Source of the DNA: a virus
DNA length: 38,169 bases
Virus record (IMG/VR): IMGVR_UViG_3300028883_001008
Span: 1 to 38,169 of that record
Strand: one strand, 5' to 3'
How positions within the stretch are numbered: position 1 is the first letter of the stretch; every line of letters starts with the position of its first letter. The translations under genes and the position numbers were made by a program. Shown piece by piece: positions 4,199 through 15,862 of the stretch. Under the pieces are notes generated by a model. It was not told the origin of the DNA. It saw only the letters and a program-made list of their open reading frames with translations, and did not search any database.

Positions 4199-5177
4199 GA
4201 TTTTTTACAAACTCCTTGCTATGATCATTTATTGTTATTTTTGAAAAGAAATCCTTTTGATTATCCCTGAGCCGTTTTAGAGATAATGAATAATAGTGTT
4301 GATCTAGTTCAACACCAATGCTATTCCTTCCCCATAGTGCCGCGGCTAAATTAGTAGTTCCAGTACCCATGAATGGATCAAAAACTACATCTCCAACGAA
4401 ACTGAACATACGAATCAACCGACTTGCTAGTTCCAAAGGGTATGGAGCTGGATGCTCTCGAGTTGAGGCACCTGGTACATCCGTCCAGATCTGTCGGAAC
4501 CATTTTTGATGATTCTCCGATGAGATTACACTAAGAAGTCTGGCTGCTTGACTCGTTTTTCGATAACCTTTCGGTTTTCTGAACATAAGAATATACTCGA
4601 CATCGTTCTTTACAACGCCATTCGGTTCATATGGTTTTCCGAGAAATCCCGATCCACCTTTAACCTCATATGATGCGTTTGCGATTTTATGCCAGAAAAT
4701 CGGAGCAAGGTTTGAATATCCAATTTTTCTACAATGCTCTTGAATTGAGGCGTGAAGAGGGATGCATGTGTGTTCTCCTTTATTCTTCCTTCGGGATAAA
4801 CACACATCTCCAACAACGCAGATCAATCGTCCACCAGGGACTATAGCTTCTAAGACCTGTGACCAAATTTTATCAAGTTCATTTAGGAAAGATTCATAAT
4901 CATCTACATGTCCAAGTTGCCCTTCTGAGTCACGATAACGTTTAAGAGTCCAGTAGGGCGGAGAAGTAAGGGCTAAATGAATTGAATTTGGCTTTAGAAA
5001 ATCGATTTCGCGGCAATCGGCTCTATACAGATTGTGTTCGGTCGGGATTTTTCCAATTGCATCATGAATTTCTATCATTAGTTCGGGAGTTTTTGCTATC
5101 TGTGGGATTGCTTTATCGATGCTTCTGGTATCTTCCAGGTGTTTTACATCTTGGGGTAAGTAGCTAAAGAGGTCCAT
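4188..5177 (-). CDS. DNA methyltransferase, N4-cytosine or N6-adenine
   Basis: A 329-residue S-adenosylmethionine-dependent DNA methyltransferase forming the modification half of the restriction pair. Catalytic motif IV, TSPPYW, is at residues 71-76, and the AdoMet-binding motif I, DPFMGTGTTN, is at 267-276. This IV-before-I order is that of beta-type enzymes. An SPPYW catalytic loop is most often found in N4-methylcytosine enzymes, though some adenine enzymes share it. It comes first in the operon and overlaps the endonuclease by 11 bp. The Shine-Dalgarno is weak. No controller (C-protein) gene is visible. Confidence 0.88.
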   Translation of the reverse strand: MDLFSYLPQDVKHLEDTRSIDKAIPQIAKTPELMIEIHDAIGKIPTEHNLYRADCREIDFLKPNSIHLALTSPPYWTLKRYRDSEGQLGHVDDYESFLNELDKIWSQVLEAIVPGGRLICVVGDVCLSRRKNKGEHTCIPLHASIQEHCRKIGYSNLAPIFWHKIANASYEVKGGSGFLGKPYEPNGVVKNDVEYILMFRKPKGYRKTSQAARLLSVISSENHQKWFRQIWTDVPGASTREHPAPYPLELASRLIRMFSFVGDVVFDPFMGTGTTNLAAALWGRNSIGVELDQHYYSLSLKRLRDNQKDFFSKITINDHSKEFVKNHEK

Positions 5178-6165: not shown

Positions 6166-6241
6166 GTAAGCGGTAAATCTCTCCTTCTTGTAATCTGAAA
6201 AAGACCAAGTATACTTCTGTCAAAACATGCAGGAGAAGAAC

Positions 6242-6535
6242 ATGCCAAAAAGGAAAATAATCGACTGGCCGGCAACAATAAGTGAATATCAGAACAGTAA
6301 CGTCACTGTGGAAGAATTCTGCGCCGGATTAGGGATTCACCCGAATACATTTTACAAAAACCGGAAAAAGCATCAGGGAGCAGAAACGCAACTGGTAAAA
6401 CTGCCGTTGAAAACAGAACCGATACAGCCGCAATCTCTGCTCATCCAGGCAGAAGGTTTCATCCTGAAAATACCCGAAGGCGTCGATCAGAAGACTCTCG
6501 AAACAACGCTCCGTGTCCTGCAGGATATCCGATGA
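6242..6535 (+). CDS. tnpA: IS66 accessory protein TnpA
   Basis: A 97-residue first protein of the IS66 element. The N-terminal half is a helix-turn-helix (ATISEYQNSNVTVEEFCAG followed by HPNTFYKNRKK), as in IS66 Orf1 proteins, and the C-terminal strand-rich segment resembles the usual FILKIPEG tail. I chose ATG 6242 because AGGAGAAG precedes it. It ends in an ATGA overlap with tnpB, so the two are coupled. Its exact role in transposition is not settled in the family, but it is needed for efficient movement in studied elements. Confidence 0.9.
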   Translation: MPKRKIIDWPATISEYQNSNVTVEEFCAGLGIHPNTFYKNRKKHQGAETQLVKLPLKTEPIQPQSLLIQAEGFILKIPEGVDQKTLETTLRVLQDIR

Positions 6536-6876
6536 TTCTGGATCTTGCCCAATACCAGTTTTATCTGAAACCCGGGATAACTGACCTCAGAAAAGCGATC
6601 AATGGATTGTCCGTCATAGTGCAGAATGAAATGAGTCTGTCCCCATTCTCGAAATGCCTGTTTCTGTTCTGTAACCGGACCAGGAAAAATCTTAAGATTG
6701 TATACTGGGACAAAAACGGTTTCTGTCTCTGGCAGAAGAAACTGGAAAAACAGAAGTTCCCCTGGCCTGGGACAGAACAGGAAGCAGTGGAAATAAGCTA
6801 CCAGCAGCTGGAGATGCTGCTGGCAGGAATAGATTTCTTCAAAGCTCATCAGGAATTATCATTTTCCCGGGTTTAG
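6532..6876 (+). CDS. tnpB: IS66 accessory protein TnpB
   Basis: A 114-residue IS66 Orf2-type protein. It has the family signatures YLKPGITDLRKAINGL near the start, LFLFCNRTRKNLKIVYWDKNG in the middle and LEKQKFPWPG, which make the assignment secure. It is translated by overlap with tnpA and is intact. It is required with TnpA for transposition in IS66-family elements; its biochemical function is unknown. Confidence 0.93.
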   Translation: MILDLAQYQFYLKPGITDLRKAINGLSVIVQNEMSLSPFSKCLFLFCNRTRKNLKIVYWDKNGFCLWQKKLEKQKFPWPGTEQEAVEISYQQLEMLLAGIDFFKAHQELSFSRV

Positions 6877-6915
6877 GGGTATTAATTTCCAGACAACTCT
6901 GATAAAATTTCTGCA

Positions 6916-8496
6916 ATGAACGAAGCAGCTTTGTTGCAGCAAATCAAAGAACTCAAACAACAAATCTCAAAAAAAGATATTCAAATTATCAAACTTGAAG
7001 AGCAGGTAAAGCTCCTGCAGTATCTGCACTTTGGCACCAAATCCGAGAAACTGACCGGGGAAGATGAACGAACTGGATTATTGTTCAATGAGGCCGAAGA
7101 TACAGCATTTGAACAGAACGATCCGCAGCAGATAGAGAAGGCAAAGAAAACCATAGAGATCGGTCCCCAGACTCGTACTGTGAATGAAAAGGTCGGGAGA
7201 ACTCGCATTGATCAATCCATCCCACGGGAAGAAAAAGTGTATGAGCTGACAGATGAAGAGAAAATCTGTGATTGTGGTCACGAGCTAAAATGCATCGGAG
7301 AGGATGTGACAGAACGTCTGAAAATTAAGCCGCCGGAAGTAACGGTAATCAGGGAAATAAAAAAGAAATATGTCTGTGAAAACTGTGAAGGACTGGAGCG
7401 GGAAGACGAAAAAGGCGTTATCACGGCACAGGGGCCGAAACACCTGATTCCGGGAAGCATGGCCGATGAAAGTTTCCTGGCCTGGAGCATCAGCGAGAAA
7501 TTCGAGTTTGCCCTTCCGTTTTACCGGCAGGCGATCCGCCTGAAGCAGATTGGAGCGCCGATACCCAGAGCTACTTTAAGTAATCTGACAGTAAAGGCCG
7601 GAATCAAGTGCGAACCGATCTACAAACTGCTCCGTCCTCACCTGCTCTCAGGTCCGGCGATAAACGGTGATGAGACACGAGTGCAGGTTATGAAAGAACC
7701 GGGCAGAAAAAATCAATCTCAATCATGGATGTGGGTTTTTCTTGGTGGACCGCCGGACCAAGAATGTATCGTGTACCAATATGAAGAAACCCGGTCTCAT
7801 GACATACCATATGAGTTTCTGGGGGGCTATGCAGGGCTGTTTCAGAGTGATGATTATGAAGGATATCATACGGCAATCAGGAAACTAAAAAATGAAACCG
7901 GCAGTGAAATCCTTCACTTCCTCTGCTGGGCCCATGCCAGAAGGTATTTTCACCGGTACTGGGAATCAACAAAAAAGCAGGACAAGGAAGCAAAGGCAAT
8001 TCTTGATCTGATCAGTGCTTTGTTTGAACTGGAAGATCTCAGGGACCAGTATTCCACGAAAGGATTCCTCAAACAGAGGAAAAACAAGGCAGAACTGATC
8101 TTTGCTGAACTTAAGCAGAAACTGGAAACTCTGTTCCGGCAAACACCGTCCGGACTGTCCTTCGGCAAGGCAATTGCATATACTCTGGACAACTGGGAAC
8201 AGCTGGTTGCGTATGTTGACCATTATGAGCTGACTCCAGCAAACAATGCTGCCGAACGGGCGATCAGACCGTTTGTAATCGGCAGGAAAAACTGGCTGTT
8301 TTCCGGTAGCCCTGCAGGGGCCAAATCATCGGCAATTCTCTACAGCCTCGTTGAATCTGCAAAGCTGCATAATCTTAAGCCATTTGAATATCTGCACTAC
8401 ATATTCAGGCAGATTCCGTATTGTCTCAATGATGATGATTATGCTGCGTTGTTACACTTTAATGTAACACCGGAACAGCTGCAGGCTGCAAGGTAA
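6916..8496 (+). CDS. tnpC: IS66 transposase TnpC
   Basis: A 526-residue DDE transposase that catalyses strand transfer. The N-terminal ~60 residues are a coiled coil (LLQQIKELKQQISKKDIQ). A cysteine cluster follows (CDCGHELKC and CENCEG), then the catalytic core: Asp252 in NGDETRV, Asp312/313 in FQSDDYEGYH and Glu447 in NAAERAIRPFVIGRKNW. The C-terminal IS66 tail is present. The full family length and all three acidic residues indicate an active enzyme. It lies 39 bp after tnpB and stops 14 bp before the right inverted repeat ends. Confidence 0.95.
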   Translation: MNEAALLQQIKELKQQISKKDIQIIKLEEQVKLLQYLHFGTKSEKLTGEDERTGLLFNEAEDTAFEQNDPQQIEKAKKTIEIGPQTRTVNEKVGRTRIDQSIPREEKVYELTDEEKICDCGHELKCIGEDVTERLKIKPPEVTVIREIKKKYVCENCEGLEREDEKGVITAQGPKHLIPGSMADESFLAWSISEKFEFALPFYRQAIRLKQIGAPIPRATLSNLTVKAGIKCEPIYKLLRPHLLSGPAINGDETRVQVMKEPGRKNQSQSWMWVFLGGPPDQECIVYQYEETRSHDIPYEFLGGYAGLFQSDDYEGYHTAIRKLKNETGSEILHFLCWAHARRYFHRYWESTKKQDKEAKAILDLISALFELEDLRDQYSTKGFLKQRKNKAELIFAELKQKLETLFRQTPSGLSFGKAIAYTLDNWEQLVAYVDHYELTPANNAAERAIRPFVIGRKNWLFSGSPAGAKSSAILYSLVESAKLHNLKPFEYLHYIFRQIPYCLNDDDYAALLHFNVTPEQLQAAR

Positions 8497-12700: not shown

Positions 12701-13040
12701 TATGGAGGAAGGAACAACCGCCGTAAAAACCCAGGGAGTAGGCATGAAACTGTCCGTAAAAAGATGGTCCCTGTGCGAAACCTGATAAAAACCATGTCGG
12801 TGAAAGGCCGATCCGACCTGCCGGGAATTATCGGCCCGGCAACCAGTGAGGCCGTAAGCGTGCGGCTGTGCAGATGGCAGGAATTACCGCGGCACCACCG
12901 CGGGAACACCGCACATGGAATGGCTGGTCTATCCCCTCCGGGTCGCGCCGGACACTGGTTATCGCGCCGTTCCGAATGTCTGACGGTTATCAGGCATTTC
13001 AAAGCGGAGACGGGACCGCCGGGCCGGTTGGAAGACCGGC
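12701..13040 (+). other. GC-rich structured segment, coding status unclear
   Basis: About 340 bp without a convincing gene. A purine-rich GGAGGAAGG begins 5 bp after the tRNA. A 27-codon frame from ATG 12702 and a frame open from ATG 12764 to 13060 exist; the latter runs into the tRNA-like element and has an implausible composition. Strong dyads stand out: GCCGGG/CCCGGC (12820-12840), CCGCGG twice flanking CACCA (about 12888-12904) and GCCGGT/ACCGGC (13023-13040). I read it as mainly structured RNA or decayed sequence. Confidence 0.35.
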
Positions 13041-13045
13041 AGCAT

Positions 13046-13099
13046 GAGCCGGCAGTGTAATGTGGGGCACGCTATCGGGTTCGAGTCCCGTCCGGCTCA
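13046..13099 (+). ncRNA. tRNA-like element lacking an anticodon arm
   Basis: A 54-nt element. Acceptor GAGCCGG (13046-13052) pairs with CCGGCTC (13092-13098), discriminator A 13099. CA is followed by the D stem GTGT/GCAC with loop AATGTGGG. The T arm is CGGG/CCCG with loop TTCGAGT. Between D arm and T arm only GCTA (13071-13074) remains, so the whole anticodon arm and variable loop are missing. The hairpin GCCGGT/ACCGGC (13023-13040) lies 5 nt upstream. It could be a deleted tRNA remnant or a functional mini tRNA mimic; the preserved acceptor pairing argues for some selection. Confidence 0.5.
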
Positions 13100-14523: not shown

Positions 14524-14877
14524 ATGGACTACAAAAAGGTATCGCTGGACACCTTGAACAGCGGCGCGGTTATAGACCTGTTCAATGAAGAATGGGAAAA
14601 GCTCCTTGAGAACATAGCGGATGAGAATACCAAATCGGACGGCCAGCGAGAGGTCCGAATTGTGATCAAGGTAAAGCCGGATAAAAATCGTCAGTCTGCG
14701 AAAACAACTGTAGAGGCTACTACAAAACTGGCACCGGTGAAGCCTCATGAATCGTTTGTTCTGTTGTCCGGGGAAGGTGGGAAAGTCAATGCCTACGTCT
14801 CCGATCCCAGGCAGCAGGAGCTCGAGGGGATCGAGGGAAATGTAGTGGAAATGAAAGGGGTACAAAAGCATGGTTGA
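14524..14877 (+). CDS. Protein like phage 'replication terminator' family
   Basis: A 117-residue protein matching, from memory, short phage proteins annotated 'replication terminator protein': LNSGAVIDLFNEEWEKLLENIADENT followed by REVRIVIKVKPDKNR, then a variable tail. The family name is an automated label and the role is not established. GGGGAGG lies 4 nt upstream of ATG 14524. It overlaps the next gene by 8 bp, and this pair is a common neighbourhood in phage early regions. Confidence 0.65.
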   Translation: MDYKKVSLDTLNSGAVIDLFNEEWEKLLENIADENTKSDGQREVRIVIKVKPDKNRQSAKTTVEATTKLAPVKPHESFVLLSGEGGKVNAYVSDPRQQELEGIEGNVVEMKGVQKHG

Positions 14878-15607
14878 TGGAAGTGCAGTAAATGCAATAG
14901 TTGAACTCGATGCGAAGAGTCTTGAGAAGGAAGTGGATGGAATCAAATTTACAGCCCGGCAGATGAATCCGGTTATCTTCGAGCCGAGCCCGGACAAACT
15001 CGATCTTGATAGTCTTTCCGGCCTGGTGGAGCTACTGACAGAGCCGATCGATGAAGACCTAAAAGACAGTAGTAAATTATTGATCCACGTGGCCTCCTAC
15101 AGTGAGGTGAACCTCTACGGAAAGCTCTACGGGAAGAATAGAAAGAGAGATCTTTTTGCAACGGTGAAGCTCAACAGTTCATATGAGACTTTTCCTTTCG
15201 GAGATTTTCTCGAAAGTGAAGTATTTCAGATCAAGCTTCGCTCTCAATTCAAACCAACGCCTGATATTGATGAGCTTTTCACCTTCACATCAAAGCTCAC
15301 TGTAACCGATGGGGTTAGTACTCGGGATGACGGTATAACCCAGGAGGTTTCGGTTCGTCGCGGGATGAGCGGTGCTCTTATCGAGAAAGCAACCTCCAAG
15401 CCTATAGTAACCCTTAAACCATACAGAACATTCCGGGAGATCGAACAGCCGGAGAGCGAATTTCTTTTTCGAATGAGGGCCGAAGATGGGAAGATTCCAA
15501 AACTGGCCCTCATCGAAGCGGATGGCGGCGCCTGGCAGCTTGCGGCGGTCCAGGCGATTGCGGAGTACTTCACGTTACATCTGTCTGAGATGAAAGTCGT
15601 CTATTAA
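14870..15607 (+). CDS. Conserved phage protein, DUF2303-like
   Basis: A 245-residue protein of the kind often found next to the 'replication terminator' gene in phages. Recognisable blocks are HVASYSEVNLYGKL, KRDLFATVKL, KPYRTFREIEQPESEF and EADGGAWQLAAVQAIAEYF near the C-terminus. The name DUF2303 is my best match, without a search. Probably cytoplasmic, role unknown, possibly linked to DNA replication or recombination through its neighbours. Confidence 0.6.
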   Translation: MVDGSAVNAIVELDAKSLEKEVDGIKFTARQMNPVIFEPSPDKLDLDSLSGLVELLTEPIDEDLKDSSKLLIHVASYSEVNLYGKLYGKNRKRDLFATVKLNSSYETFPFGDFLESEVFQIKLRSQFKPTPDIDELFTFTSKLTVTDGVSTRDDGITQEVSVRRGMSGALIEKATSKPIVTLKPYRTFREIEQPESEFLFRMRAEDGKIPKLALIEADGGAWQLAAVQAIAEYFTLHLSEMKVVY

Positions 15608-15738: not shown

Positions 15739-15862
15739 CGGCCTGTAGTTCAGAGGTAGAACGGTGGCGGGGTTCAGACGGCCGCACTAACGAGCGGATC
15801 AATGCCGATTCCCCATAAGCAACGCGCGCCATATGTCGGCGGTTCAATTCCGCTCGGGCCGG
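15739..15862 (+). ncRNA. tRNA-like element with 75-nt anticodon-region insert
   Basis: The outer parts are canonical: acceptor CGGCCTG (15739-15745) with CGGGCCG (15855-15861), TA, D stem GTTC/GAAC with loop AGAGGTA (15748-15762), T stem GGCGG/CCGCT with loop TTCAATT (15838-15854). Between D and T arms lie 75 nt (15763-15837) instead of the usual ~22. One reading keeps a normal anticodon stem GTGGC (15764-15768) with GCCAT (15828-15832) and a 5-nt variable loop ATGTC, leaving a 59-nt loop that would hold an insertion. Another reading forms GCGG/CCGC (15767-15785) with an 11-nt loop plus a long extra region. It is not a standard tRNA. No protein is likely here. Confidence 0.55.

Follow-up and report, generated by a model that had tools for sequence, protein, structure and literature searches.

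What kind of RNA does a virus encode in a gene that has the acceptor, D and T arms of a tRNA together with the contacts of its elbow, and no canonical anticodon loop? Such a gene occupies positions 15739-15862 (+ strand) of the window, by which we mean the whole stretch of 38,169 nucleotides analysed here, a virus record that carries an integrase, a terminase and an HNH gene.

A tRNA body with an enlarged decoding arm

Read 5′ to 3′, the element consists of the acceptor strand CGGCCTG (15739-15745), TA, the D arm GTTC-AGAGGTA-GAAC with G18G19 (15748-15762), a single G, GTGGC at anticodon-stem positions 27-31 (15764-15768, the 5′ strand of P1), an insert of 59 nt that takes the place of the anticodon loop (15769-15827), GCCAT at anticodon-stem positions 39-43 (15828-15832, the 3′ strand of P1), a 5-nt variable loop ATGTC whose C48 pairs with G15 (15833-15837), the T arm GGCGG-TTCAATT-CCGCT (15838-15854), and the acceptor strand CGGGCCG followed by the discriminator G (15855-15862); the 3′ CCA is not encoded. 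The first-pass annotation had described the three arms as canonical, with 75 nt between the D and T arms and a GTGGC/GCCAT stem that leaves a 59-nt loop and a 5-nt variable loop, and our inspection confirmed this description: all seven acceptor pairs (15739-15745 with 15855-15861) and all five T-stem pairs form, U8 is present, and the bases of the elbow and tertiary contacts are correct (U8-A14, G15-C48, G18G19 and U54U55C56). The departure from a tRNA lies in the decoding arm, where a 5-bp stem with a 7-nt loop and U33 is lacking and the loop measures 59 nt.

In a search of a 3.5-kb stretch, the element matched Rfam RF00005 with 45.6 bits (E 8.7e-8; cut-off 29 bits), and the alignment paired 15764-15768 with 15828-15832 and placed the 59-nt insert in the anticodon loop, which is normally 7 nt long. 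ARAGORN reported the element when introns were allowed and did not report it at default settings, an example of how standard tRNA finders can overlook such genes. A strict tRNA-body search of the window returned a single enlarged and a single mini element; 60 shuffled windows yielded neither kind. No sigma-70-type promoter or terminator was seen near the element.

Constrained folding predicted one layout for this insert and for that of an enlarged tRNA on contig L065, in which P1 leads to P2 (GGGG/CCCY) with an inner hairpin, then to ATAA, a mini-hairpin and back to P1. The predicted parts in the window are P2 (GGGG 15769-15772 with CCCC 15811-15814), the inner hairpin (CGGC 15779-15782 with GCCG 15804-15807), ATAA (15815-15818) and the 2-bp mini-hairpin P3 (GC 15819-15820 with GC 15826-15827). 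The folding energies of the window and L065 inserts are no better than those of shuffled sequences (z 0.48 and 0.02, respectively), and the fold is drawn from these two sequences, between which most insert pairs are invariant; for both reasons we put the three-way junction forward as a weakly supported proposal.

Neighbouring gene, probable host and enlarged tRNAs in related phages

The element starts 132 nt 3′ of a gene (14870-15607, + strand) whose product, a protein of unknown function, belongs to phrog_1029 in PHROGs; DUF2303, considered as its identity, was dropped, as Pfam gave no match and PHROGs pointed to phrog_1029. The closest relative of this protein is encoded on phage contig L058 (60% identity), and the closest among genomes lie in prophage-like loci of Treponema sp. 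Marseille-Q4130 (42-43%), with further relatives in other genomes of the same phylum, so that the host of the window virus is probably a spirochaete. The phrog_1029 reading frame of L058 (5001-5729) contains an in-frame stop. Three consecutive reading frames at 6227-8496 of the window resemble, by eye, an IS66-type transposon inside the prophage.

Contigs that had been fetched solely for encoding the phrog_1029 protein were then checked for enlarged tRNAs. Most enlarged tRNAs of the related phages and spirochaete genomes sit just downstream of this gene and carry other inserts: they lie directly after it in L166 (99 nt long), about 300 nt after it in L005 (6047-6180), 400 nt after it in L061 (from about 6119) and after it in L058 (6380-6517), with one upstream of it in L071 (1974-2118). 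Contig L065, which also encodes the phrog_1029 protein, has its enlarged tRNA at 4907-5029. The L058-type element recurs after phrog_1029 in the spirochaete genome G400 (L164), which also holds a second, partly decayed copy with a broken T stem (L485). Another spirochaete genome, G357, has two enlarged tRNAs 0.3 kb apart (L480a and L480b) that lie in a related phage region and do not follow phrog_1029; as in the window, a helix-turn-helix gene lies upstream and an HNH-like gene downstream, the genes being named by eye.

The insert of the window element itself was met far less often. In a BLAST search of annotated phages and plasmids the element had no relative, and motif scans of viral contigs for the insert common to the window and L065 recovered L065 only, other matches being without tRNA context. 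Because a covariance model built from both elements matched only ordinary tRNAs of 73-85 nt across 393 spirochaete genomes, this insert family is rare.

Several other RNA-like features were observed in the related loci. On L065, a tRNA-like element directly after phrog_1029 (4380-4495) has an acceptor and a T arm, and a long hairpin GCATAACG/CGTTATGC occupies the place of its D arm. Treponema prophages carry a minihelix-like CGGGCGC...GCGGG-TGCAAGC-CCCGC-GCGCTCG right after phrog_1029 (L002:1607-1690 and L003:5727-5810), and a related phage contig has a Type II hammerhead ribozyme match (L011:2241-2302; 46.9 bits, threshold 37).

Conservation of the body and of the inserts

The inserts of the window and L065 elements are alike well beyond chance (alignment z 8.7; 0 of 300 shuffles as good), with GGCGGGGTT common to their 5′ sides and GATTCCC-Y-ATAAGCA-W-CG-N-GCGCC to their 3′ sides. 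Their tRNA bodies differ in sequence and keep all 7 acceptor and all 5 T-stem pairs, with double-sided changes at 1-72, 4-69, 5-68, 50-64 and 51-63. A different insert is common to L061 and L480b (z 8.3) and yet another to L058 and L164, and the inserts of L166 and L480a show a weak likeness (z 3.0); between subfamilies the inserts are non-homologous, so that they need not share one function, and MAFFT alignments across subfamilies are meaningful for the tRNA body only. The earlier suggestion of a small functional domain in the decoding arm gains support from the retention of the insert in L065 and of analogous inserts elsewhere.

The elements of L058 and L164 are nearly identical while the surrounding intergenic DNA has widely diverged, and among the handful of differences between them, one replaces A1-U72 by G1-C72 and another, C to U, preserves the CCCYATT/AAUGGGG pairing. 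Across ten elements, 149 of 150 body pairs are formed, and the tertiary (Levitt) pair 15-48 covaries, occurring five times as G-C and four times as A-U, with one element unpaired there. Pairing and covariation of this kind show an L-shaped body with acceptor, D and T arms and elbow contacts, and the sequence comparisons show that the body of the enlarged RNAs is maintained by selection.

A shortened companion and a second RNA-like element

The mini element returned by the strict search (GAGCCGG...CCGGCTC, 13046-13098, + strand; 0 in 60 shuffles) has an acceptor stem, a D arm and a T arm whose stem contains one U-U, and its anticodon arm is absent. The companion element named in the first-pass annotation is thereby confirmed; the further suggestion of a link between the shortened and the enlarged forms receives some support from a similar anticodon-less element in the related phage L009 (6791-6845), about 1.1 kb 3′ of phrog_1029.

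A second conserved RNA-like element was observed at 12841-12961 of the window, at L058:6084-6185 and at L150:2544-2682 (- strand coordinates). Its constant ends, AACCAGTGAG...CCTCCGGGYC-NNN-CCGGACACTGGTTA, enclose a variable middle. In the window it precedes the mini tRNA, and in L058 and L164 it precedes the enlarged tRNA.

Origin and role of the insert

The first-pass annotation had also raised the possibility of an intron, that is, an insert spliced out to leave a normal tRNA, as has been suggested for the tRNAs of Lak megaphages, and some phage tRNAs clearly do contain short inserts that resemble introns (PMC6784885). We asked of each element whether deletion of one contiguous block yields a stem of 5 bp together with U33 and a purine at position 37, a test that shuffled inserts pass in about 1% of cases. 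None of the seven related elements passed (window, L065, L166, L058, L005, L071 and L061), against 14 of 23 other enlarged viral tRNAs from a pattern scan of viral contigs; the scan listed 35 enlarged elements in all, a number inflated by pattern-selected contigs that is not to be read as a frequency. Because of this difference, the window element belongs with the group that no one-block removal converts to a decoder. The restorable tRNAs, among them L401, L443, L461 and L459 with the insert between positions 28 and 29, resemble the 'enigmatic introns' of Lak phages. A group I intron was rejected, as first-pass annotation had anticipated from size: the insert has 59 nt against a catalytic core of at least about 200 nt, and an Rfam search up to E 5 matched none. 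An archaeal bulge-helix-bulge intron was likewise rejected, since the motif is absent from the insert junction in the predicted fold, where P1 runs straight into P2 on the 5′ side, and the relatives of the element lie in bacterial genomes. None of the related loci fetched showed a sibling copy free of the insert. The case against an unusual intron is weakest for L166 and L480a, because both have U-CGA near the loop start; for the window element we regard splicing as improbable.

The remaining alternatives differ in what the RNA would do. Decay of a tRNA gene after a random insertion does occur in this group, as the broken T stem of L485 attests, and is largely refuted for the window element by the compensatory acceptor and T-stem changes, the near-complete pairing of the bodies and the presence of the same insert in two distant phages. 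A working tRNA that still decodes through its hugely enlarged loop, at a frameshift or a special codon, would agree with the fully tRNA-like body; as neither end of the insert offers a U33-type loop, and since a 59-nt loop would not fit the decoding centre, we consider this the most remote of the readings. A better, though still unlikely, candidate is a decoy, a tRNA mimic that occupies or inhibits a tRNA-cutting defence enzyme of the host, or some other factor that binds tRNA, and that the altered decoding arm makes uncleavable. The wide variety of inserts on conserved bodies is what an arms race would be expected to produce, and phages are known to overcome tRNA-cutting defences by supplying tRNAs (PMC11555353). 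Against this, such nucleases chiefly recognize the anticodon loop, a part that the element does not have, nothing points to a particular defence target, and an insert common to the distant window and L065 phages is atypical for a pure decoy. The decoy is plausible as a special form of the explanation that we favour.

That explanation, to which we assign a probability of roughly 0.6, is that 15739-15862 encodes a stable, non-decoding small RNA with a tRNA body, in which the insert is the working part. Host RNase P and tRNA 3′ processing would cut the RNA from a transcript and CCA would be added; the tRNA body would provide maturation, stability and recognition, and the 59-nt domain may bind a partner from host or phage, either in the prophage state or early in infection. 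In related phages the same scaffold would carry different domains. For the broader proposal, that spirochaete-group phages maintain non-decoding tRNA-bodied RNAs whose anticodon arm has repeatedly been swapped for different functional RNA modules, we consider the odds about even. If true, this class would be the natural equivalent of the tRNA scaffold used in RNA engineering. On this view viruses seem to exploit the tRNA shape to carry RNA pieces unable to read codons, and the tRNA body would then be a ready-made viral carrier for other RNA functions.

Other observations concern the intron-like inserts of viral tRNAs. Eight such tRNAs (L362, L401, L443, L461, L459, L466, L408 and L434) have inserts of 46-57 nt near anticodon-stem positions 28-30, and several of these inserts end in GGTTAY or GTTACTT. 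At L413:4219-4335 and L441:6033-6149 (-), inserts in the anticodon loop resemble a mini tRNA with an acceptor and a T arm, which recalls the description of one Lak phage intron. Two tRNAs on L446 (155-288 and 1926-2058) carry visibly similar inserts of about 61 nt just 3′ of the anticodon loop, which hints at a mobile insert.

Comparison with known systems

Phage tRNAs with inserts are already known, whereas a non-restorable class that is conserved and tied to one phage gene, as seen here in phages of the spirochaete type, did not appear in the literature searched. The present analysis separates two kinds of enlarged phage tRNA, one intron-like and decoder-restoring, the other non-restorable. 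Lak megaphage tRNAs carry short unexplained inserts that are conserved between cohorts, one of them possibly containing a tRNA gene of its own (Devoto et al. 2019, PMC6784885). The window element has in common with them a phage tRNA gene carrying a short insert, and differs in that deletion of the insert restores no canonical tRNA, in its phage group, with relatives in spirochaete genomes, and in its location in a region of the recombination/replication type instead of a large tRNA array.

A tRNA acceptor and T arm joined to a non-tRNA domain are also found in tmRNA, whose tRNA-like domain lacks a true D stem and which has a tag reading frame and pseudoknots; the window RNA, at about 124 nt, has a full D arm, and neither ARAGORN nor Rfam reported a tmRNA, so the first-pass view that it is unlike tmRNA holds. 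The mini companion shows a likeness to mascRNA/menRNA at 20.8 bits, below the threshold of 42.5; these RNAs are eukaryotic and shortened rather than enlarged like the element at 15739-15862, and homology is not claimed. Similar in kind is T4 RNAC (species 1 RNA), a phage-encoded stable small RNA of 139 nt that adjoins tRNAs and whose function is unknown (PMC3014915, PMC9697503). Its large internal domain is set within a partial acceptor (5/7) and a T arm that is perfect (CCGGG-TTCGAAT-CCCGG), but no tRNA D arm was found, it gave only a weak tRNA-Sec match, and it was set aside as a relative for want of a sequence relation. The class described here, if real, would also offer a handle on two old puzzles, T4 RNAC and the tRNA inserts of Lak phages.
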